From Clostridia bacterium (GTDB taxonomy: Bacteria; Bacillota; Clostridia; Christensenellales; Aristaeellaceae), in contig JAGBDE010000022.1 in assembly GCA_017937655.1 (NCBI GenBank), positions 1-43,417 of the forward strand: DNA of 43,417 bases. Reading direction: 5' to 3'. Below the pieces are notes generated by a model. The model was given only the letters and a program-made list of their open reading frames with translations, was not told the origin of the DNA and made no database searches. Both the position numbers and the translations under genes were made by a program. Positions 25,421 to 43,356 of this stretch are shown one piece after another. Each line of letters opens with the position of its first letter. Within the stretch, counting starts at the first letter, position 1.

Positions 25421-25449
25421 TTGACAAAATACAACATATAGTGCAAAAT
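25421..25449 (+). promoter_or_regulatory. Promoter of the pyrimidine operon
   Basis: TTGACA (25421-25426) and CAAAAT (25444-25449) are 17 bp apart. A TTTTT run (25453-25457) sits near the expected start point, followed by the hairpin GTAGC-CAA-GCTAC (25462-25474). The leader is only about 40 nt, too short for a PyrR-type attenuator. Confidence 0.6.
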
Positions 25450-25494
25450 ATATTTTTGAGCGTAGCCAAGCTACACCATCCAAAGAAGGGGGCG

Positions 25495-26751
25495 ATGTAC
25501 TTGCAAAACCGGTTGGAAAACGTGCTTTTCTATTGCAAGGGCAAAGTGTCCGTTGGAGATGTGGCCTTGTCTGATGGCCGCATTGTTAACGTTTCCGTTT
25601 CTCCTGATACCGCTGTTTCTATGGCGGGAAAGTTGTTGATACCCGGTCTTGTTGATGTCCACGTACATCTTCGAGAGCCGGGCTATTTTTATAAGGAGAC
25701 CGTCCTGACGGGAACCAAGGCTGCGGCCCGGGGAGGTTACACCACGGTATGCTCCATGCCCAACCTGAACCCGCCGCCGGACTGCCCGGAAAACGTGAAG
25801 CTCCAGCAGCAGATCATCGACCGGGATGCGCTGGTGAACGTGCTTCCCTACGGATGCATCACCGTGGGGCAGAAGGGCGCAGGCCAGCTTTGCGACTACG
25901 AGGCCATGAAGGACATGGTGGTCGGCTTCTCGGACGACGGCAAGGGTGTGCAGAGCGAAAGCACCATGCGCAGCGCCATGGAGCAAATCGCCAAGACGGG
26001 CCGCATCCTGGCCGCCCATTGCGAGGACGAGAGCCTGCTCCGCGGCGGATACATCCACGACGGTGAGTACGCCCGGGCCCATGGGCATCGGGGCATCTGC
26101 AGCGAAAGCGAATGGGGCCAGATCCAGCGCGACCTGAAGCTGGTGAAGGAAACCGGCTGCCGCTACCATGTGTGCCATGTGTCCACCAAGGAAAGCGTGG
26201 AATTGATCCGCCAGGCCAAAAAGGAAGGCGTGGATGTGACCTGCGAGACCGGCCCCCACTACCTGCTTCTGTCTGACGCAGATCTGCAGGAGGATGGCCG
26301 CTTCAAGATGAACCCGCCCCTTCGCGGCAAGGCCGACCGGGAAGCTTTGATCGAAGGCCTGCTGGACGGCACCATCGATATGATCGCCACGGACCACGCG
26401 CCCCACAGCGCGGAGGAAAAATCCCGGGGGCTGGAAAAGAGCCTCATGGGCGTGGTGGGACTGGAAACCGCTCTCCCGGTGCTGTACACCGGTCTGGTAA
26501 AACCGGGCATTGTGCCCCTGGAACGCATCATTCAGGCCATGACCGACGCGCCCAGACAGCGCTTCGGGCTGCCTGTGATGGATATTCTGGATGACCCCTC
26601 GGACTTCGCCCTGTTTGACCTGGACGAAGAATATGTGATCGACCCTCAGACCTTTTTGAGCCAGGGACGGGCGACACCGTTCGCAGGCTGGAAGGTACAA
26701 GGAAAATGCGAAATGACGGTAGTGGGAGGTAAAGCAGTATGGCAGAAATGA
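25495..26751 (+). CDS. pyrC: Dihydroorotase
   Basis: A 418-residue zinc amidohydrolase that closes carbamoyl-aspartate to dihydroorotate. The metal ligands are visible in DVHVHLREPG (H56, H58), the GFSDDGKGV loop where Bacillus-type enzymes carry Asp instead of carboxylated Lys, LAAHCEDE, CHVSTKES and TDHAPHS. The length matches the type I bacterial enzyme. The ATG at 25495 follows AAGGGGG; upstream in-frame codons lie in the promoter. First gene of the ten-gene pyr operon; its end overlaps carA by 13 bp. The A/T-rich 5' end contrasts with the GC-rich rest of the operon. Confidence 0.95.
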   Translation: MYLQNRLENVLFYCKGKVSVGDVALSDGRIVNVSVSPDTAVSMAGKLLIPGLVDVHVHLREPGYFYKETVLTGTKAAARGGYTTVCSMPNLNPPPDCPENVKLQQQIIDRDALVNVLPYGCITVGQKGAGQLCDYEAMKDMVVGFSDDGKGVQSESTMRSAMEQIAKTGRILAAHCEDESLLRGGYIHDGEYARAHGHRGICSESEWGQIQRDLKLVKETGCRYHVCHVSTKESVELIRQAKKEGVDVTCETGPHYLLLSDADLQEDGRFKMNPPLRGKADREALIEGLLDGTIDMIATDHAPHSAEEKSRGLEKSLMGVVGLETALPVLYTGLVKPGIVPLERIIQAMTDAPRQRFGLPVMDILDDPSDFALFDLDEEYVIDPQTFLSQGRATPFAGWKVQGKCEMTVVGGKAVWQK

Positions 26752-27833
26752 GAAAACAGCGCATGCTGGTGATGGAAAACGGCAGCGTACACTACGGCTA
26801 CGGCTTCGGATCCGGCAAGGATTGCCTGTGTGAATTGGTGTTCAACACCGCAGTGGTGGGCTATCAGGAATTGGTGACCGATCCCGGCTGCATGGGCCAG
26901 GGCGTGGTCATGACCTATCCCCTCATTGGCAATTACGGCATCACCGCGGAGGACAACGAGTCCCGCATGCCTGCTCTGGGCGCGCTGATCGTGCGTGAAT
27001 ACTGCGATGAACCCAGCAACTTCCGCTATGTGCAGACTTTGGCCGAGTTCATGGAGGACAATGGCGTGGTGGGCCTGGAGGGCGTTGACACCCGCACCAT
27101 TACCCAGATGATCCGAGACGAAGGTTCCCAGCTGGGCTTGATCTGCGACGCTGACACCGCCGTGGAGGACGCCATGGCCCGCATCAAGGCCTATGAGCAG
27201 CCCCATGATCTGATCAGCCAGGTCAGCTGCAAGAAGAAGTGGTACGCCCGTACCCCCAACCCCAGCTACAATGTGGTGGCTGTGGACTGCGGCATCAAGC
27301 AGAACATCGTCCGCCTGCTGAACCAGTGCGGCTGCAACGTGACTGTGGTGCCCTTTGACACCCCCGCCGAAACCATCTTGTCCATGAAGCCCGATGGCGT
27401 GGTCATTTCCAACGGCCCCGGAGATCCCCGGGACGCCAAGGCCACCATCGAGACCATCCGCCAGCTGCGGGGCAAGCTGCCCCTGTTCGGCATCAGCGCC
27501 GGCTATCAGATGATCTGCCTGGCCGCTGGCGCCAAGGTCAGCAAAATGAAGGCGGGCCATCACGGCGGCAACCAGCCTGTGCGGGAAGTGAAGACCGGCA
27601 AGGTCATCATCACCAGCCAGGGCCACAGCTATGTGGTGGATGAAGCCAGCCTGGCCGATACCGTGCTCACCGTCAGCTACAAGAACGTGCTGGACGGCAC
27701 CGTGGAAGGCGTGGAGGGCGACAAGATCATCGGCGTGCAGTTCCACCCCGAAGGAGCCCCCGGCCCTCAGGACAGCGACTACCTGTTCAAGCAGTTTATT
27801 GACATGATGAAGGAGGCCAGCAAAAATGCCTAA
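26739..27833 (+). CDS. carA: Carbamoyl-phosphate synthase small subunit lacking the glutaminase Cys
   Basis: A 364-residue protein with the CarA N-terminal domain ([35 protein letters not shown]) and a class I glutamine amidotransferase domain ([43 protein letters not shown]). The nucleophile motif GICLGHQ of active enzymes reads GISAGYQ here: Ser253 (codon AGC, 27495-27497) replaces the Cys. H336 and E338 of the triad remain. Other positions that touch glutamine in E. coli CarA are changed too: Ser47 to G50, Leu270 to A254, Asn311 to G295, Gly313 to S297. Human CPS1, which uses ammonia, has GISTGN at this place. The protein probably keeps a structural role while CarB uses free ammonia. GGAGG lies nine bases upstream of the ATG. 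Confidence 0.95.
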
Positions 27834-30800
27834 GCGTACAGATATCAAGCGAGTACTGGTTATCGGTTCCGGCCCCATCGTCATCGGCCAGGCCGCAGAG
27901 TTTGACTATGCCGGCACCCAGGCCTGCCTGGCCCTGCGGGAGGAAGGCTATGAGGTCATCCTGGTCAACTCCAACCCCGCCACCATCATGACCGATACCC
28001 ACATCGCGGACAAGGTCTACATGGAGCCCCTGACCCTGGAATACGTCGCCAAGATCCTCCGCTACGAGCGTCCCGACGCCATCCTGCCCGGCCTGGGCGG
28101 CCAGACCGGCCTGAACCTGGCCATGCAGCTGAAGAAGAAGGGCGTTCTGGACGAGTGCCAGGTGGAAATCCTGGGCACCGGCTTTGACAGCATCGAAATG
28201 GCGGAAGACCGCGAGCTGTTCAAGGAGCTCTGCGAGCGCCTGGGCGAGCCCGTGCTGCCCTCTGCCATCGCCTCCACCGTGGAGGAAGGCCTGAAGGCTG
28301 CCGAGGAGATCGGCTACCCGGTGGTGCTGCGTCCCGCTTTCACGCTGGGCGGCACCGGCGGCGGCTTCGTGGACAACGAAGAAGAAATGGTGGAGCTGTG
28401 CAAGCACGCTTTGATGCTGTCCCCCGTGAACCAGGTTCTGGTGGAAAAGAGCATCAAGGGCTATAAGGAAATTGAATTCGAGGTCATGCGCGATGCCAAC
28501 GACACCGCCATCGCCATCTGCTCCATGGAGAACGTGGACCCCGTGGGTATCCACACCGGCGACAGCGTGGTGGTCTGCCCTGCACAGACCCTGACCAACA
28601 AGGAATACGGCATGCTCCGCGACAGCGCTCTCAAGATCATCCGCGCGCTGAAGGTGGAAGGCGGCTGCAACGTCCAGTTCGCGCTGGATCCCTACAGCTT
28701 CCAGTACTACCTCATCGAGGTCAACCCCCGCGTGAGCCGTTCCTCCGCTCTGGCCAGCAAGGCCAGCGGCTATCCCATCGCTCGGGTATCTGCCAAGGTG
28801 GCCATGGGCATGCACCTGGAGGAGATCATGCTCTCCACCACCCCCGCCTGCTTCGAGCCCTCCATTGACTACGTGGTCAGCAAGATCGCCCGTTTCCCCT
28901 TCGATAAGCTGGAGGGCGCCAGCAACCAGCTGTCCACCCAGATGAAGGCCACCGGCGAGGTCATGAGTCTGGGCCGCACCGTGGAGGAAAGCCTGCTCAA
29001 GGCCATCCGCTCCCTGGAAATTGGCGTGTGCCACCTGTACATGCCCAAGTTTGACAACTACACCAACGACGAGCTTTTGGACTACGTCCACGAAGGCAAG
29101 GACGACCGTCTCTTCGCCATTGCCCAGATGATCCGAAACGGCGTTGACCTGGGCATGATCTACGACGTGACCAAGATCGACATGTTCTTCCTGAACAAGC
29201 TCAAGAAGATTGTGGAGTTCGAGACCGTGCTCAAGTCTTCCGTGGGCGATGTGGACGTGCTGGCCGCCGCCAAGAAGATGGGCGTCAGCGACAAGTACAT
29301 CGGCCAGTGCTGGAACATGACCCAGGCCGAGGTCTACAAGCTGCGCAAGGCCAATAACCTCTGGCCCGCTTACAAGATCATCGACACCTGCGGCGGCGAG
29401 TTCGCCAGCTACGTGCCTTACTTCTACTCCACCTACGAAGGCCGCAACGAGTCCAAGGTGTCCGACCGCAAGAAGATTGTGGTGCTGGGCTCCGGCCCCA
29501 TCCGCATCGGCCAGGGCGTGGAGTTCGATTACTCCACCGTCCACGCCATCTGGACCATCCGCAAGGCTGGTTATGAAGCCATCATCATCAACAACAACCC
29601 CGAGACCGTCTCCACCGACTACACCACCAGCGACAAGCTCTACTTTGAGCCCCTGGCCATCGAGGACGTAATGAACGTCATCGAGCTGGAGAAGCCGGAA
29701 GGCGTTGTGGTCAGCCTGGGCGGCCAGACCGCCATCAACCTGGCCGAGGGCCTGCACGACCTGGGCGTGAACATCATCGGCACCGGCGTGGAAGCCATCA
29801 ACCGGGCCGAAAACCGCGATTCCTTCGAGAAGATCATGAACGAGCTGGGCATTCCCCAGCCCAACGGCGAAGCCGTGACCGACATCGAGGCCGGTGTGCG
29901 GGTCGCCAACCGCATCGGCTACCCGGTGCTGGTGCGCCCCAGCTTCGTGCTGGGCGGCCGCGCCATGCAGATCGTCAACGACGAAGCCGGCCTGCGCCAC
30001 TACCTCAAGACCGCCGTGGCCCTGAACGAAGATCAGCCCGTGCTGGTTGACCACTACATCACCGGCAAGGAGCTGGAGACCGACGCTGTTTGCGACGGCG
30101 AGAACGTCTACATCCCCGGCATCATGGAGCACGTGGAGCGCACCGGTATCCACAGCGGCGACTCCATCAGCGTCTATCCCACCTTCTCCGTCAGCGAGAA
30201 GGCCAAGCAGACCATTATTGACTACACCGTGCGGCTGGGTCTGGGCATCGGCATCGTGGGCCTGTACAACATCCAGTTCATCGTGGATAAGAACGACAAT
30301 GTGTACGTCATCGAGGTCAACCCCCGTTCCTCCCGTACCGTGCCCTTCCTGAGCAAGGCCACCGGCGTGCCTCTGGCCGACGTGGCTACCCGCGTCATGC
30401 TGGGCGAAAGCCTGCAGCAGCAGGGCATCTTCGATGTGATCGCCCCCGAGCGCAGCAAGTGGTACGTGAAGGCCCCCGCCTTCAGCTTCTCCAAGCTCCG
30501 CGGCATGGACGCCTACCTGAGCCCGGAAATGAAGTCCACCGGTGAGGCCATCGGCTACGACCGCAAGCTGACCCGCGCCCTGTACAAGGCCATGCAGTCC
30601 TCTGGCATGAACGTGGCCAACTACGGCACCATCTTCGTCACCATTGCCGACCAGGATAAGGCCGAGGCCCTGCCTCTCATCCGCCGCTTCTACGACATGG
30701 GCTTCAACATCGAGGCCACCCGCGGCACCGCCGAATACCTGAAGAACCACGGCATCCGCACCCGCGTGCGCAACAAGATCAAGGAAGGCACCGAGGAGAT

Positions 30801-31008
30801 CCTCACCTCCCTCCGGCAGGGCCACGTGAACTACGTGATCAACACCCGTGCCGCCGGCGGCGCCTCCGCAGACTCCGACGGCGCCCTCATCCGCCGCTGC
30901 GCCGTGGAAAACAACGTGACCATGTTCACCGCTCTGGACACCGTCCGGGTGCTTCTGGAGGTGCTGGAGGAGATCACTTTGGGTATCTCCACCATCGACA
31001 GCGAATAA
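27826..31008 (+). CDS. carB: Carbamoyl-phosphate synthase large subunit
   Basis: A 1060-residue enzyme that makes carbamoyl phosphate from bicarbonate, ammonia and two ATP. It has the two homologous ATP-grasp halves: the carboxyphosphate half ([48 protein letters not shown]) and the carbamoyl-phosphate half ([45 protein letters not shown]), then the C-terminal MGS-like allosteric domain ([33 protein letters not shown]). The length and motifs are normal, so the catalytic core looks functional. The start overlaps the carA end by 8 bp. With the altered CarA the nitrogen donor is probably ammonia. Confidence 0.97.
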
Positions 31009-31023
31009 GGAAGGATATTTGTC

Positions 31024-31782
31024 ATGCGATTTATCGTCAAGGAAAACCGCTGGCTGACCAAGGACGTGCTCCTGATGCGCCTTATGGGCGACACCCGGAG
31101 CATCGTCCGGCCCGGACAGTTTGTCCAGATCGCCCTGCCCGGCTTCTACCTGCGCCGCCCCATTTCCGTGTGTGACTGGGAGAGTGGGGAAGAGGGCAGC
31201 CTGACCCTGATCTACAAGGTGGTGGGTCACGGCACCGAGGCCATGAGCCTGATGGAAGAAGGCACGGAGCTGGATCTGCTCATGGGCCTGGGCAATGGCT
31301 TTGACATCCAGGCCGATGAAATGCAGACTGTGGAAAACCCGCTGCTGGTAGGCGGCGGCGTGGGCGTGCCGCCCATGTACGGCCTGTGCAAGCGCCTTGT
31401 GGAAATGGGCAAGAAGCCTACCATGGTCATGGGCTTTGGCAAGGAAAACGAGATCTTCTGGAAGGCCGAGTTCGAGGCCCTGGGCGTTCGTACCATCGTG
31501 ACCACCATTGACGGCTCTGTGGGCGTGAAGGGCTTTGTGACCGACGCCATGAAGCAGATGCCCGGTGAGTATGACGGCGTGATGTGCTGCGGCCCCGAGC
31601 CCATGCTGAAGGCCGTGTACGACCTGTGCCAGCCCGAAAACATTCCCGGCTGGTACAGCTTTGAGGAGCGGATGGCCTGCGGCTTTGGCGTATGCATGGG
31701 CTGTAGCTGCCAGACCAAGTACGGCAGCAAGCGCATCTGCAAGGATGGCCCGGTGCTCAGAGGGGAGGAGATTGTATGGTAA
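31024..31782 (+). CDS. pyrK: Dihydroorotate dehydrogenase electron-transfer subunit
   Basis: A 252-residue FAD and [2Fe-2S] protein that passes electrons from PyrD to NAD+. It has the ferredoxin-reductase-like FAD domain (GQFVQIALPGFYLRRPISVCDW), the NAD-binding part (LLVGGGVGVPPMYGLCKRL) and the C-terminal cluster ligands C219-x4-C224-x2-C227-x11-C239. AAGGA precedes the ATG. It overlaps pyrD by 7 bp. Together they form the heterotetrameric class 1B enzyme of Gram-positive bacteria. Confidence 0.96.
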   Translation: MRFIVKENRWLTKDVLLMRLMGDTRSIVRPGQFVQIALPGFYLRRPISVCDWESGEEGSLTLIYKVVGHGTEAMSLMEEGTELDLLMGLGNGFDIQADEMQTVENPLLVGGGVGVPPMYGLCKRLVEMGKKPTMVMGFGKENEIFWKAEFEALGVRTIVTTIDGSVGVKGFVTDAMKQMPGEYDGVMCCGPEPMLKAVYDLCQPENIPGWYSFEERMACGFGVCMGCSCQTKYGSKRICKDGPVLRGEEIVW

Positions 31783-32690
31783 ATACCAAAGTCACTCTTT
31801 CCGGCTGGGAGCTGGACAACCCCATCATCCCCGCCAGCGGCACCTTCGGCTACGGCAAGGAATTTGCCGAGCTGTGGGATATCAACATGCTGGGCTCCTT
31901 CTCCTTCAAGGGAACCACCCGGGAAGCCCGCTTCGGCAACCCCACGCCCCGCATCGCGGAATGCAGCGCGGGCATGATCAACGCCGTGGGCCTGCAGAAT
32001 CCCGGCATCCAGCATGTGGTGGAGCATGAGCTTCCCGAAATGAAGAAGTTCTTCCACAAGAAAGTGGTGGCAAACATCAGCGGCTTTTCCCTGGAGGAGT
32101 ACGTGGACTGCTGCCGCATCATGGACAAGGAAGACCAGGTGGGCATCATCGAGGTCAACGTCAGCTGCCCCAATGTGCATGGCGGCGGCATGGCCTTCGG
32201 CACCTCTCCGGAAAGCGCGGCCCAGGTGACCCGCGCCGTGAAGGAAGTGACCCAAAAGCCCGTTTACATCAAGCTCAGCCCCAATGTGACGGACATCGTG
32301 TCCGTGGCCAAGGCTTGCGAAGAAGCCGGCGCCGACGGCCTGAGCCTCATTAACACTCTGCTTGGCATGCGCATCGACCTGAAGAAAAAGAAGCCCGTCA
32401 TCGCCAACAAGATGGGCGGATTCTCCGGCCCCGCCATTTTCCCGGTGGCCCTGAGAATGGTCTTCCAAGTGGCGCAGGCCGTGAACATCCCCATCATCGG
32501 CATGGGCGGCGTCGCCACTGCCGAGGACGTGATTGAAATGATGCTGGCCGGCGCAACGGCGGTGCAGATTGGCGCGCAGAACCTGGTGGATCCCTACGTC
32601 TGCCCCAAGATCATCGCAGAGCTGCCCAGCGTCATGGAAAAATATGGTATCCAGTCCCTGACAGACATTATCGGAGGTGCGTGGAAATGA
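31776..32690 (+). CDS. pyrD: Dihydroorotate dehydrogenase B, catalytic subunit
   Basis: A 304-residue FMN TIM-barrel enzyme that oxidises dihydroorotate to orotate. Motifs are [37 protein letters not shown] with the catalytic Cys of class 1 enzymes, [20 protein letters not shown] and the FMN-phosphate loop [33 protein letters not shown] precedes the ATG. It overlaps pyrK before it and pyrF after it (ATGA). Confidence 0.97.
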
Positions 32691-33391
32691 AAAAGGGCGA
32701 CGTGATCATTGCTTTGGACTTCCCCAGCGCAGAGAAGGCTTACGCTTTCCTGGATCAGTTCCAGGAGGAAAAGCCTTTTGTGAAGATCGGCATGGAGCTC
32801 TACTATGCCGAGGGCCCGGAAATTGTGCGGCAGATCAAACAGCGCGGACACAAGATCTTCCTGGACCTGAAGCTGCATGACATTCCCAACACCGTGAAGA
32901 GCGCCATGGCGGTTTTGAGCCGCCTGGACGTCGATATGACCAACCTGCATGCCGCCGGCACCATCGACATGATGAAGGCCGCCGTGGAAGGCCTGACCCG
33001 CCCCGACGGCACCCGTCCCATGCTGCTGGCCGTGACCCAGCTGACCTCCACCAGCGAGGAGCGCATGCAGAACGAACTGCTCATCAATGCCACCATGCCT
33101 GCCACCGTGCAGAAGTACGCCCAGAACGCGCAGGAAGCCGGCCTGGACGGCGTGGTCTGCTCTCCCCTGGAGGCCAAGCTGGTGAAGGAAGCCTGCGGCG
33201 ATACCTTCCAGACCGTGACCCCCGGCATCCGCTTCGCTGACGGCGACGTGGGCGACCAGGTGCGCGTCATGACCCCCGAAAAGGCCCGGGTGGGCGGCAG
33301 CGACTACATCGTGGTGGGCCGTCCCATCACCAAGGCGGAGGATCCCGTGGCTGCCTACCGCCGCTGCGTGAAGGAATTCCTGGGCGACTGA
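32687..33391 (+). CDS. pyrF: Orotidine 5'-phosphate decarboxylase
   Basis: A 234-residue TIM-barrel enzyme that decarboxylates OMP to UMP. The catalytic array is visible in [23 protein letters not shown] and [15 protein letters not shown] (Lys-Asp-x-Lys-x2-Asp), with PGIRF and [12 protein letters not shown] near the C terminus. The ATG at 32687 overlaps the pyrD stop and has GGAGGT eight bases upstream; a GTG two codons earlier is less likely. Confidence 0.97.
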
Positions 33392-33412: not shown

Positions 33413-33895
33413 ATGGCTGTGAAGATCGTGGAAATCCAGAAGGAAAGCTGGCCTCAGGTGCGGCTCATCGGCAAGAAATACGATGGCGCGCCCAACTGGG
33501 GCGAATGGTGGGCAAACGACTGGTTTTCCAGGCTGGAGTGTAGTCCCCGCCACCCCATGAACCAGGATGCGTTCGTCGGCGCGGTGCGGATCAGAGACGG
33601 CAAGCCGCAGCGGTGGATCGGCATGTTTTTCCCCACGGAAACCGTGGCCCCGGAAGGGTTTGAGTGGGTGGACATCGGCCCTTTGGACTATGCGGTGTGT
33701 TATCTGCAAGCCCCGGACGGCAGCGGCGATTTCTACTCCATGGAAACCCATGAACAATGCCTTGCCGCGCTGAAAGCCCAGGGCCTGACCCGCAAGGAAG
33801 GCGACTGGTGCTTCGAGCGCTACCAATGCCCCCGCTTTACTACGCCTGACGCCCAGGGCAACGTGATCCTGGATTACGGCGTTTCCATTCTGTGA
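33413..33895 (+). CDS. GyrI-like (effector-binding type) protein inside the pyr operon
   Basis: A 160-residue soluble protein without a DNA-binding domain. The strings ARLIGKKY-like VRLIGKKYDG, WGEWWANDWF, DAFVGAVRI, WIGMFFPTETVAPEGFEWVDIGPLDYAVCYL and ERYQCPRFTTPDAQGNVILDYG resemble the GyrI-like small-molecule-binding domain that is fused to AraC- or MerR-type regulators or found alone. AAGGAGG lies upstream of the ATG. It is set between pyrF and pyrE with gaps of 21 and 20 bp, so it is co-transcribed with UMP synthesis genes. It may bind a metabolite; no reaction is known. The domain call is from motif memory. Confidence 0.8.
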   Translation: MAVKIVEIQKESWPQVRLIGKKYDGAPNWGEWWANDWFSRLECSPRHPMNQDAFVGAVRIRDGKPQRWIGMFFPTETVAPEGFEWVDIGPLDYAVCYLQAPDGSGDFYSMETHEQCLAALKAQGLTRKEGDWCFERYQCPRFTTPDAQGNVILDYGVSIL

Positions 33896-33915: not shown

Positions 33916-34572
33916 ATGGAAGCTTACAAGAGAGAGTTTATCAAGTTTCTGGAAGGCGCCGGCGTTCTGAAATTCGGCGATTTCACCGCCAAGTCCGGCC
34001 GCAAGATTCCCTACTTCATCAACGCCGGCGATATCAAGACCGGCGAGCAGATCGCCAAGCTGGGCGAGTTCTACGCCAAGGCCTATCTGGAGAAGGTGGG
34101 CAACCGCCGCACCGTGCTTTATGGCCCCGCCTACAAGGGCATTTCCATCGCTGTGTCTTCTTCCATCGCTCTCAGCAAGGAAGGCCTGGACGTTCCCTTC
34201 TTCTTCAACCGCAAGGAAGCCAAGGATCACGGCGAGGGCGGCGTGTTCGTGGGCTACGTGCCCAAGGCCGGTGAAGAAGTGGTCATCGTGGAAGACGTGA
34301 TCACCGCCGGTACCGCCATCCGCGAGAGCATGGCCATCCTCAGCAACTTGGAAGACGTGAAGGTGGCCGCCACCTTCGTCATGGTGGACCGCAAGGAAAA
34401 GGGCAAGACCGACAAGAGCGCCATGAGCGAAGTGGAAGAGGAATTCGGCTTCCCGGTGTACTCCGTGGTGGATGTGTATGACATCATCGAGTACCTGGAG
34501 GAGGACGAAAAGAACGCCGAGAACGTGACCCGCATCAAGAACTACCTGGCTGTGAACGGAGCAAAAGCATGA
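33916..34572 (+). CDS. pyrE: Orotate phosphoribosyltransferase
   Basis: A 218-residue type I phosphoribosyltransferase that joins orotate and PRPP to OMP. It shows [52 protein letters not shown] (catalytic Lys loop) and the PRPP-binding motif [24 protein letters not shown] precedes the ATG. It overlaps pyrB by 4 bp. Confidence 0.97.
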
Positions 34573-35483
34573 GACATCTCATCGATATTCTGGATCTGAC
34601 CATCGAGGAAATCGACCAGCTGATTGAGACGGCTGAGGACATTATGGCAAATCCGGCCAAGTACGCCCATGTGTGCGACGGCAAGAAGCTGGCCACCCTG
34701 TTCTTTGAGCCCAGTACCCGCACCCGCCTGTCCTTTGAGGCGGCCATGATGGAGCTGGGCGGCAATGTGCTTGGCTTCTCCGAGGCCAGCTCTTCCAGCG
34801 CTTCCAAGGGAGAAAGCGTCTGTGATACGGTGCAGGTGGTGGGCTGCTATGCGGACATCATCGCCATGCGCCATCCCAAGGAAGGCGCGCCTGTGGCGGC
34901 TGCCTCTGTGTGTCCTGTGCCCATCATCAACGCAGGCGACGGCGGCCACAACCATCCCACCCAGACCCTGACCGACCTGCTCACCATCCGCAAGGAGAAG
35001 GGCCGACTGAACCAGCTGGTCATCGGCCTGTGCGGAGACCTGCAGTTTGGCCGGACGGTGCACAGCCTGATCAACGCCATGAGCCGTTACAAGAGCATCC
35101 GCTTCGTGCTGATCTCTCCCAACGAGCTGAAGGTGCCTGAGTACATCAAGGAAAACATGCACCGGGACAAGGTCAGCTACATGGAAGTGGAGCGGCTGGA
35201 GGACGTCATCGGCACGCTGGACATCCTGTACATGACCCGTGTGCAGCGGGAGCGTTTCTTCAATGAGGCCGACTACGTCCGCCTGAAGGACAGCTACATC
35301 CTGGACACCGAGAAGATGAAAATGGCCCGGAAGGATCTGTGCGTGATGCATCCCCTGCCACGGGTCAACGAGATCAGCCGGGCCGTGGACAGTGACCCCA
35401 GGGCCGCTTATTTCCGCCAGGCCATGTACGGCAAGTACATCCGCGAGGCCCTGATCATGAAGCTGCTGGGGGTGGAAGCATGA
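34569..35483 (+). CDS. pyrB: Aspartate carbamoyltransferase catalytic subunit
   Basis: A 304-residue enzyme that joins carbamoyl phosphate and aspartate. The carbamoyl-phosphate loop [13 protein letters not shown], the [10 protein letters not shown] mobile loop, [21 protein letters not shown] and the aspartate-site HPLPRVNEI are complete. Both the start (ATGA with pyrE) and the end (ATGA with pyrI) overlap neighbours, so subunit synthesis is coupled. It consumes the product of CarAB. Confidence 0.97.
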
Positions 35484-35908
35484 ACATTGACAGCATCCAG
35501 AACGGTTACGTCATCGACCATATCAAGGCCGGCCGGAGCATGGAGCTCTACCGCCACCTGAAGCTGGACAGCCTGGACTGCTCCATCGCCATCATCCAGA
35601 ACGCCAAGTCCGAGCGCATGGGCAGGAAGGACATCATTAAGATTGACCAGGAGATTCCCATTGACTGGGATATGCTGGGCTACATCGACCCGGACGTGAC
35701 GGTGAATGTGATCCGCGGCGGCAAGCGGGTGGAAAAGAAGCAGCTGAAAATGCCTGACCGGGTGGTCAACGTAATGCGCTGCAAGAATCCCCGCTGCATC
35801 TCCCAGGTGGAGCATGAGCTGGATCAGATTTTCACCCTGGCAGACCGGGAAAAACGCGTGTACCGCTGCCACTATTGCGAAACCGCTTATAAGCGCAGCG
35901 AAAAGTAA
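35480..35908 (+). CDS. pyrI: Aspartate carbamoyltransferase regulatory subunit
   Basis: A 142-residue allosteric subunit. The N-terminal nucleotide-binding domain contains [20 protein letters not shown] and [15 protein letters not shown]; the C-terminal zinc domain has four Cys in CKNPRC and CHYC. CTP/ATP control of the holoenzyme is expected from the family. Its presence makes PyrB a regulated enzyme, a likely reason why no pyrR gene is found in this operon. It is the last operon gene. Confidence 0.96.
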
Positions 35909-41856: not shown

Positions 41857-43326
41857 TTATGGTGGAGCACTACCGGCAATATCCGAACCGAAAACCTGCT
41901 GAACATCCTCCAGAGAAATCGTCTCCGATTCGTCTTTGTAGTTATAGGTCATCACCAGCTTGTCTTCAAACACATAAATGCTGTTGACGAAAACATCGAT
42001 AATCTGCTTCTGATATTCCAGATCGTTGGGATCGCCATATTTGAACCGTTCGATCCATCCAACGATCTGTTCTTTGGTGAACTTTGGCTTGCCCAGCTTT
42101 TCCTGCAGGATGCTGATGTTCAGTTCTTCCCGGCGGGCTTCCAGCTCTTCCAGCCGCTTCTTGGTGGAAGGCGTAATGATGCCGGCTTCGATGGCGCTCA
42201 GCATGTTCTCAATAGCCTTTTCGCATTCCTTCAACTGCTGACGAAGCGTGGGAAGCATCGTATTTTCCTGATCCTGCAAAGCAATGATCGCATCGGCAAT
42301 GCGGTTGATGACCTCGTCGTTCATGACGCGTGATACGGTTGCCTGCACCACAGCCCGTTCGATCCAATGCTTTTTGAGCGCTTTCAGATTGCAGCCCAGC
42401 TTGCGCTTGGCGCCGCCGCATTTGTAGTAATGATACACATCGCCGTTGTTGCTCCGACCGCTTTCGCCTGCCAGCATTCGTCCGCATTTTCCGCAGAACA
42501 ATTTGGTGGTCAGAAGATATTCCTCCGTGGCTTTCGCTCTTGCGGGGGCACGGCGGTTGACTTCCATTCGCTGCTGTACTCGGTTGAATTGCGCTTCATC
42601 AACAATGACAGGCAGCTTGCCGGGGATGACGATCTGACCATAGCGATATTCGCCGATATACTTCCGGTTTTTCAGCACGGTTTCCATGCTGCCGATGCGG
42701 AAGGGCTTCCCCTTGGAAGTGCGAACGCCCTGCTTGTTCAGAAAATCTACTATGCTTGTAAGCGATTCGCCGTTGTCATAACGGCGGAAGATTTCCTGAA
42801 CAATGGGAGCGGTGGCAGGATCAAGCTCCAATACACCGTCCGCGCCACGTCGGAAGCCCATCGGGATCGTTCCGCCATTGTTTCTGCCTTTGAGTGCGTT
42901 TTCTGTCTGTCCACGTTGAATCTTCACTGCAAGTTCCGCAGAGTAATATTCGGACAAGCCCTCCAGCAATGATTCCAGAAGGATTCCCTCGGGACTGTCG
43001 GCGATGTTTTCTGTGGCAGAGATCACCTTCACGCCATTCTTTTTCAGAATATGCTTGTAGGTGGCGCTGTCGTATCGGTCACGGGAAAAGCGATCAAGCT
43101 TCCATACAATGATCACATCGAACAGCTTTTTCTCGCTGTCGTTGATCATCCGCTGAAAGTCAGGACGGTCTGCCGTTCTTGCGGACATGGCACGGTCGAT
43201 ATAGTTGCCGATCACAGTGATCCCGTTGCGTTCCGCATAGGCCATGCATTCGCGCAGCTGACCTTCGATACTTTCTTCACGTTGATTATCCGAAGAATAG
43301 CGGGCATAAATCACGCCGGTCATCAT
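41857..43326 (-). CDS. Large serine recombinase (resolvase/integrase)
   Basis: A 489-residue site-specific recombinase of a mobile element. The N-terminal catalytic domain begins MMTGVIYARYSSDNQREESIEGQ, with the nucleophilic Ser in the YSSDNQ motif, followed by DRPDFQRMI, WKLDRFSRDRYDS and ENIADSPEGILLESLLEGLSEYYS. A recombinase domain (GFRRGADGVLELDPATAPIVQEIFRRYDNGES), a zinc ribbon (CGKCG, YKCGG...GCN) and a coiled coil (about residues 345-400) follow. The ATG at 43324-43326 is chosen over an in-frame GTG at 43332 because GGGAGG lies five bases upstream of it. The 3' end faces the chromosome, so an attachment site may lie at 41719-41835. Confidence 0.93.
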   Translation of the reverse strand: MMTGVIYARYSSDNQREESIEGQLRECMAYAERNGITVIGNYIDRAMSARTADRPDFQRMINDSEKKLFDVIIVWKLDRFSRDRYDSATYKHILKKNGVKVISATENIADSPEGILLESLLEGLSEYYSAELAVKIQRGQTENALKGRNNGGTIPMGFRRGADGVLELDPATAPIVQEIFRRYDNGESLTSIVDFLNKQGVRTSKGKPFRIGSMETVLKNRKYIGEYRYGQIVIPGKLPVIVDEAQFNRVQQRMEVNRRAPARAKATEEYLLTTKLFCGKCGRMLAGESGRSNNGDVYHYYKCGGAKRKLGCNLKALKKHWIERAVVQATVSRVMNDEVINRIADAIIALQDQENTMLPTLRQQLKECEKAIENMLSAIEAGIITPSTKKRLEELEARREELNISILQEKLGKPKFTKEQIVGWIERFKYGDPNDLEYQKQIIDVFVNSIYVFEDKLVMTYNYKDESETISLEDVQQVFGSDIAGSAPP

Positions 43327-43356
43327 CTTCACCTCCCATCTGCTTCATATGGCTGA

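Follow-up and report, generated by a model that had tools for sequence, protein, structure and literature searches.

The window, that is, the whole stretch of DNA analysed (43,417 nucleotides of a Clostridia genome), holds an intact pyr operon in the order pyrC, carA, carB, pyrK, pyrD, pyrF, a 160-aa open reading frame (ORF), pyrE, pyrB and pyrI (Table 1). CarB, the large subunit of carbamoyl phosphate synthase (CPS), is a member of its family by both score (TIGR01369, 1459 bits against a cut-off of 1027) and domain make-up (two ATP-grasp halves by Pfam), and gives the one CarB match (PF02787) in the genome. A relative of the 160-aa ORF lies between pyrF and pyrE in four further genomes (G142, G338, G400 and G399). 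Near the window end, on the reverse strand (41857-43332), there is a large serine recombinase that resembles CcrB/XisF and scores below the family cut-offs.

Table 1. The pyr operon of the window and the altered or retained glutaminase residues of its CarA
Feature	Position	Strand	Basis or remark
pyrC, dihydroorotase	25441..26751	+	start codon uncertain
carA, CPS small subunit with broken glutaminase triad	26739..27833	+	364 aa; TIGR01368, PF00988, PF00117, AlphaFold model
Gly50-Cys51, replacing near-invariant Ser47-Tyr48 (E. coli numbering)	26886..26891	+	CarA alignment
Ser253 codon AGC, position of catalytic Cys269 (E. coli)	27495..27497	+	alignment with E. coli CarA
Ala254, replacing Leu270 (E. 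coli)	27498..27500	+	CarA alignment
Gly295, replacing Asn311 (E. coli)	27621..27623	+	CarA alignment
His336 and Glu338, kept (E. coli H353, E355)	27744..27752	+	CarA alignment
carB, large (synthase) subunit, catalytic residues kept	27826..31008	+	TIGR01369, Pfam
pyrK, dihydroorotate dehydrogenase electron-transfer subunit	31024..31782	+	
pyrD	31776..32690	+	
pyrF	32681..33391	+	
160-aa ORF inside the operon	33413..33895	+	without Pfam or NCBIfam match
pyrE	33916..34572	+	
pyrB	34569..35483	+	
pyrI, aspartate carbamoyltransferase regulatory chain	35480..35908	+	Pfam

A CarA altered at its glutamine site

The carA gene is a complete open frame of 364 codons plus stop, and in sequence and fold its product belongs with the glutamine-hydrolysing CarA family: it matches TIGR01368 with 415.5 bits (cut-off 307.35) as well as both Pfam families of the small subunit, is 37% identical to E. 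coli CarA, and yields an AlphaFold model (mean pLDDT 91) whose best PDB match is E. coli CarA (1cs0_B, TM 0.93), followed by human CPS1 (5dot_A, TM 0.88). The Cys-His-Glu triad of such enzymes is broken, with His and Glu kept and the nucleophile replaced by Ser in the motif GISAGYQ, and the NCBI model nevertheless still labels the protein 'glutamine-hydrolyzing'. An earlier note on this DNA had reported the Ser codon, the two retained residues and the open frame, all of which are confirmed by reading the frame and by alignment with E. coli CarA. In that alignment S47 is replaced by G50, C269 by S253, L270 by A254, N311 by G295 and G313 by S297, and a further change (H272 to Tyr256) was absent from the earlier list. 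All four substitutions listed there in addition to the Ser, at residues which we likewise take to contact glutamine, are thus present, and three of them (Gly50, Ala254 and Gly295) are counted with the defect. The fourth, Ser at position 313, is frequent among relatives whose CarA is intact, and the intact congener G397 also has Tyr at position 272, so these two are excluded.

The closest comparison comes from a sister species (G221), whose CarA is 86% identical, has the motif GIDAGYQM with Asp at the Cys269 position, shares S47G, L270A and N311G with the window protein, and also keeps the His and Glu. Because the sister has Asp at this site together with the common glutamine-site changes, a sequencing error at the Ser253 codon, which the earlier note had named as a possible refutation, is ruled out. 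Gly293 of the ammonia tunnel (E. coli numbering) is kept in both proteins. A second, intact carA would also have spoken against the earlier claim, and none was found in the window genome (57 contigs, 94% complete), which has a single PF00988 match.

Relaxed selection, the remaining sequence-based objection, has left little sign. Between the window and the sister species dN/dS is 0.151 for carA, 0.130 for pyrC, 0.144 for pyrK and 0.052 for carB, and by these ratios carA and carB are under purifying selection, near or below their neighbours. A pseudogene (a broken frame or dN/dS near 1) is likewise rejected. Within carA, the part encoding the glutamine amidotransferase (GATase) domain changes somewhat faster than the N-terminal part, with dN/dS of 0.17 vs 0.13 against the sister and 0.29 vs 0.15 against the intact G403, values that we count against the use of free ammonia considered below.

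Across 218 intact CarA sequences 64 columns are near-invariant, 10 of which are residues that we take to form the glutamine site or to be catalytic. In the window CarA 3 of the 10 are replaced, as against 1 of the 54 others (Fisher p=0.011), this one being Tyr48, which adjoins Ser47, while the mean losses of intact CarA are 0.03 and 0.41 columns, respectively. Without the three columns used to define 'intact' the counts are 2/7 vs 1/54 (p=0.03). Judged by these conserved columns, the defect is specific to the active site. Among CarA with broken triads, the 35 distinct changes at the glutamine site comprise 24 to a smaller side chain, 9 to a larger one and 2 to one of equal size, compared with 16, 26 and 5 of the 47 changes at other near-invariant sites (p=0.005). 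Since the starting residues differ in size, we offer only as a suggestion that the broken CarA may have been hollowed out to pass ammonia.

Broken and missing CarA in relatives

CarA frames from 280 of 281 loci (one locus being E. coli and one duplicate being left out) gave 250 unique sequences plus that of E. coli. Thirty of the 250 depart from the standard triad; 10 of these are fragments without the motif columns, and 20 are full-length proteins with a broken triad, from 19 genomes. Half of the 20 are pyr-type (the window genome, its sister, G404, RGIG6518, G401, G365, G065, G219, G529 and G201), and the other half are a second, arg-type CarA, two of which adjoin a gene weakly similar to PyrB, as expected of ornithine carbamoyltransferase. 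G404 has one of each type, both broken. The breaks vary: the Cys is replaced by Ser, Asp, Gly or Ala, or the His is lost with the Cys kept (G365, G401 and G634). For 14 of the 19 genomes the searches gave no intact CarA, three have an intact copy as well (G201, G477 and G547), and G529 and RGIG6518 were placed in neither class. Within the genus of the window, all 17 genomes have CarB, with CarA intact in 6 (one of them, G405, counted although split over two contigs), broken in 5 and not found in 6. In three arg-type loci (L206, L213 and L232) CarB continues into a C-terminal diaminopimelate epimerase (DapF) domain, one piece of which was confirmed as DapF; many other carB frames are also ~1340-1390 aa long.

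CarB also occurs without any CarA. Among 300 genomes of the window's family, CarA (PF00988) was matched in 215 and CarB in 255 with the PF02787 profile or 258 with the window CarB protein as query; by the two Pfam profiles, 42 have CarB without CarA and 2 the reverse (G481 and G515, both of which match the window CarB protein). Most of the genomes concerned are drafts, and 12 of the 42 reach 90% completeness or more with no more than 5% contamination. In 27 of the 42 CarB is near full-length and 67-85% identical to that of the window, the remaining 15 having CarB fragments or a more distant CarB. Twenty CarB-only loci, all pyr-type, were examined: 19 read pyrC, a gap of 5-235 bases, carB, then pyrK and pyrD, and in the twentieth (G406) the contig stops inside carB. 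In a chosen, non-random set of 97 pyr-type CarB loci the nearest upstream pyr gene is carA in 37 and pyrC in 57, with 3 unplaced. Against the use of free ammonia we count that in a further 38 of 38 genomes where carB adjoins pyrC, among them G554, G284 and G179 with their one or two contigs, CarA is matched elsewhere and could serve in trans.

Several of these loci have peculiarities of their own. In L415 and L417 the gap between pyrC and carB is ~950 bases, and a diverged CarA hidden there was considered and rejected; the ~300-aa ORF in carA's place resembles, by eye, an aminoglycoside adenylyltransferase. Intact carA and carB are separated by ~500-600 bases in six genomes of genus g6 (L222, L223, L230, L235, L237 and L251). 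The carB of one CarB-only genome (G564:C97:2624-5794) has one in-frame TAA, and locus L034 comes from sheep rectum.

Other glutamine-dependent enzymes were compared across 14 genus members. Thirteen have a PurL match, each with an intact glutaminase motif, and HisH of the window genome is intact as well, so there is no general loss of glutaminases. CTP synthase (PF06418) is present in 8 of the 14, namely all 6 with intact CarA plus G404 and G406, and was not found in the window genome, its sister, G401, G365, G142 and G338; this association with the state of CarA (p=0.005) is not a proper test, given the relatedness of the genomes and the omission of G406. The frame that strongly matches GMP synthase in G221, G365, G142 and G338 is too short ahead of the PP-loop for a GATase domain (366 aa in G221, L295 682-1779), and each of these genomes has a second, weaker match in a ~500-aa frame. 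Proteins of the latter kind were examined in the window genome and G401; that of the window genome (495 aa, L298 1477-2961 on G000:C41) has a dead GATase half, with neither the Cys motif nor His-Pro-Glu, and is the only GMP-synthase-like protein found there. The same genome encodes hisH and hisA in one 443-aa frame (PF00117 and PF00977; G000:C40, L283 1492-2823).

CarB residues and the CarB tree

At 17 of 18 positions that we take to be catalytic, CarB is identical in all 27 rows with intact CarA, 9 with broken CarA and 57 without CarA; the exception, position 754, varies in every group. Among the gate residues (E. coli 232, 251 and 314), rows with intact and with broken CarA have either Ala or Cys at 251 (Cys in the window), and one intact row differs at 232.

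The accessible text of a published account has CarA contacting the carboxyphosphate and oligomerisation domains of CarB (PMC6245113). In these two domains the CarA-less clade has lost 34 of the 309 residues that intact rows conserve, against 0 of 255 elsewhere (p=6e-10); with L277, an intact row described below, removed from the background the counts are 42/318 vs 1/262, and restricted to residues in common with E. coli they are 21/212 vs 0/175. As controls, two of three intact clades were unbiased and g9/g10 leaned the opposite way, and one lone intact row, L171, showed a bias in the direction of the CarA-less clade (p=0.04). The CarB losses of lineages with broken CarA overlap with those of the CarA-less clade: for residues shared with E. 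coli the window and its sister share 2 of 4 (p=0.016) and the other broken lineages give p=0.009, 0.003, 0.003 and 3e-5, all from small counts. In the wider residue set the overlap is 2/9 for the window and sister, which is not significant (p=0.097), and p=0.02 to 6e-6 for the others; intact rows except L277 share 2/73 losses with the CarA-less clade (by subtraction). The window CarB differs from E. coli at only 3 of the 21 columns lost in that clade (248, 533 and 550), so most of the CarA-contact surface is kept, which fits a CarA that would still be bound.

A CarB tree of 93 rows (92 pyr-type loci and the window; a quick IQ-TREE run with SH-aLRT support only) requires 7 changes between intact, broken and absent CarA, compared with 31.7 after shuffling. 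All 57 CarA-less rows fall into a single large clade, which also contains one intact row (L277, G635), and the 9 broken pyr-type rows need at least five origins: the window with its sister; G404, G401 and G365; G529 and G201; G065; and G219, the last two being long branches from other families whose exact placement is unsure. The CarA-less clade stands apart from the window, and a derivation of the CarB-only state from the window's lineage is unsupported; by the topology of the tree this lineage therefore represents one loss among several independent ones and did not give rise to the CarA-less clade. In L277 an intact CarA lies directly upstream of a CarB from the CarA-less clade, by regain, transfer or contamination, and we count this locus against the use of free ammonia.

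The nitrogen donor and known carbamoyl phosphate synthases

We consider it likely that this bacterium makes carbamoyl phosphate from free ammonia and retains its broken CarA as a structural partner of CarB. From sequence comparison we infer that CarA has lost glutaminase activity, that free ammonia is the nitrogen donor of CarB and that the two proteins still bind one another. CarA would no longer hydrolyse glutamine, and the intact CarB would use bicarbonate, two ATP and free ammonia to form carbamoyl phosphate for the surrounding pyr operon, with CarA persisting as a folded partner that perhaps also gives ammonia an open way into the old tunnel. The earlier note had arrived at the same proposal, which the repeated breakage of CarA and the CarB-only state of 42 of 300 family genomes support. 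Several observations count against it: CarA keeps His336, Glu338 and the tunnel Gly293; glutamine is probably available to the organism, since glutamine synthetase is present and PurL and HisH are intact; and bacterial CPS is described, in the accessible text, as needing very high and likely unphysiological ammonia (PMC6245113).

Were another glutaminase to act in trans, either as a foreign GATase subunit or as a stand-alone enzyme docking on CarAB, the ammonia would still derive from glutamine; the tunnel Gly293 kept in window and sister and the presence of glutamine synthetase speak for this. We regard this as improbable: the only class-I GATase matches in the genome are CarA, HisH and a 258-aa protein that is PuuD-like by eye, none of the other operon genes scanned resembles a glutaminase (class-I GATases being covered genome-wide), and the CarB-only genomes speak against it too. 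There is also little likelihood, in our estimate, that the whole pyr pathway is decaying in an emerging pyrimidine auxotroph, with CarA as an early casualty of relaxed selection. Such decay finds some footing, as PyrG (PF06418) was not found in 6 of 14 genus genomes, the window's among them, hinting at cytidine salvage, and as 45 of 300 family genomes lack a PF02787 match and 42 of 300 a match to the CarB protein. It is opposed by the dN/dS of carA and carB, which is like or below that of their neighbours, by an operon that is whole down to pyrI, by losses that fall on glutamine-site residues and not among the other 54 near-invariant ones, and by the confident AlphaFold model of CarA.

The retained His and Glu, in the sister as in the window, would also suit a Ser253 that acts as a weaker nucleophile and leaves CarA some residual glutaminase activity. 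This seems very improbable, as the sister has Asp and other broken lineages Gly, Ala or Asp at this position, S47, L270 and N311 are changed as well, Cys269 (like His353) is essential for glutamine hydrolysis in E. coli CarA (PMC6245113, accessible text), and human CPS1, with Ser at this site, is unable to use glutamine (PMC4655335, accessible text). With the glutaminase part broken or discarded, this bacterium and many of its relatives therefore most likely use free ammonia, and bacteria have here most likely, naturally and more than once, exchanged glutamine for ammonia in making carbamoyl phosphate. A broader account, to which we give an even chance, is that the family, whose members are mostly uncultured, repeatedly gave up glutamine for this step by killing the CarA site (pyr and arg) or dropping carA, that CarB adapted to free ammonia with the broken CarA as an open port with a hollowed pocket, and that GMP and CTP synthase followed in some members, putting much of nucleotide amination on ammonia.

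If the switch to ammonia is real, the ammonia-using CPS of the animal urea cycle has evolved again, several times, in bacteria, with all stages alive today (intact CarA, broken CarA and CarB alone), so that the transition from CPS II to CPS I and the entry of ammonia into CPS could be tested with natural enzymes. Metabolic models of such bacteria would then be wrong at the CPS step, because the NCBI model names the broken CarA 'glutamine-hydrolyzing'. The use of free ammonia runs counter to the accepted view, bacterial CPS being glutamine-using in published accounts as far as their accessible parts go. In a full-text search (titles and abstract starts; most subscription journals outside its scope) neither a bacterial CarA without the Cys nor a CarB-only bacterium was found among the matches listed.

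The window enzyme resembles E. coli CarAB (bacterial CPS II) in subunit make-up, gene order, CarB catalytic residues and CarA fold, and differs from it in the loss of the glutaminase Cys and several glutamine-site residues, and, at the level of the family, in the genomes with CarB in which no CarA was found. E. coli CarB alone and CarA C269 mutants support ammonia-dependent synthesis without glutaminase, and one of our structure matches (PDB 1c30) is titled C269S; these are laboratory states, whereas here the state would be natural and found in several lineages. An ammonia reaction of bacterial CPS is mentioned in the accessible text of PMC6245113. Carbamoyl phosphate is likewise made from ammonia without glutamine by the carbamate kinase-like enzyme of Pyrococcus (PMC13260591 and PMC6022934, accessible parts), which has an unrelated fold and a debated in vivo role.

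Human CPS1 (animal CPS I), with which the CarA model aligns (5dot_A), is the nearest parallel to the predicted mode of working: in CPS1 the triad Cys is also a Ser (Ser294), the next position is changed too (Thr295, E. coli 270), and it keeps a vestigial glutaminase region while using free ammonia (PMC4655335, accessible text). The description of the window enzyme as CPS I-like, made in the earlier note, is apt for this proposed mode of working and not for membership. CPS1, a single polypeptide, depends on N-acetylglutamate and supplies the urea cycle, whereas carA and carB are separate frames here. The window CarB is of the bacterial kind and encoded in a pyr operon, and it has relatives with intact CarA among its congeners. 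The old tunnel of CPS1 is blocked by Gln318 (E. coli Gly293), and a bypass ammonia entry has been proposed for it, while E. coli CPS may have one that is less clear (PMC4655335, accessible text). Since the window and sister proteins keep the Gly, unlike CPS1, ammonia might, as speculation, also enter through the vestigial glutaminase site, where most changed side chains have become smaller. The glutaminase Cys is thus replaced as in CPS I, without the fused polypeptide or the Gln at Gly293, and the window enzyme would work like animal CPS I, having evolved separately and without belonging to it.
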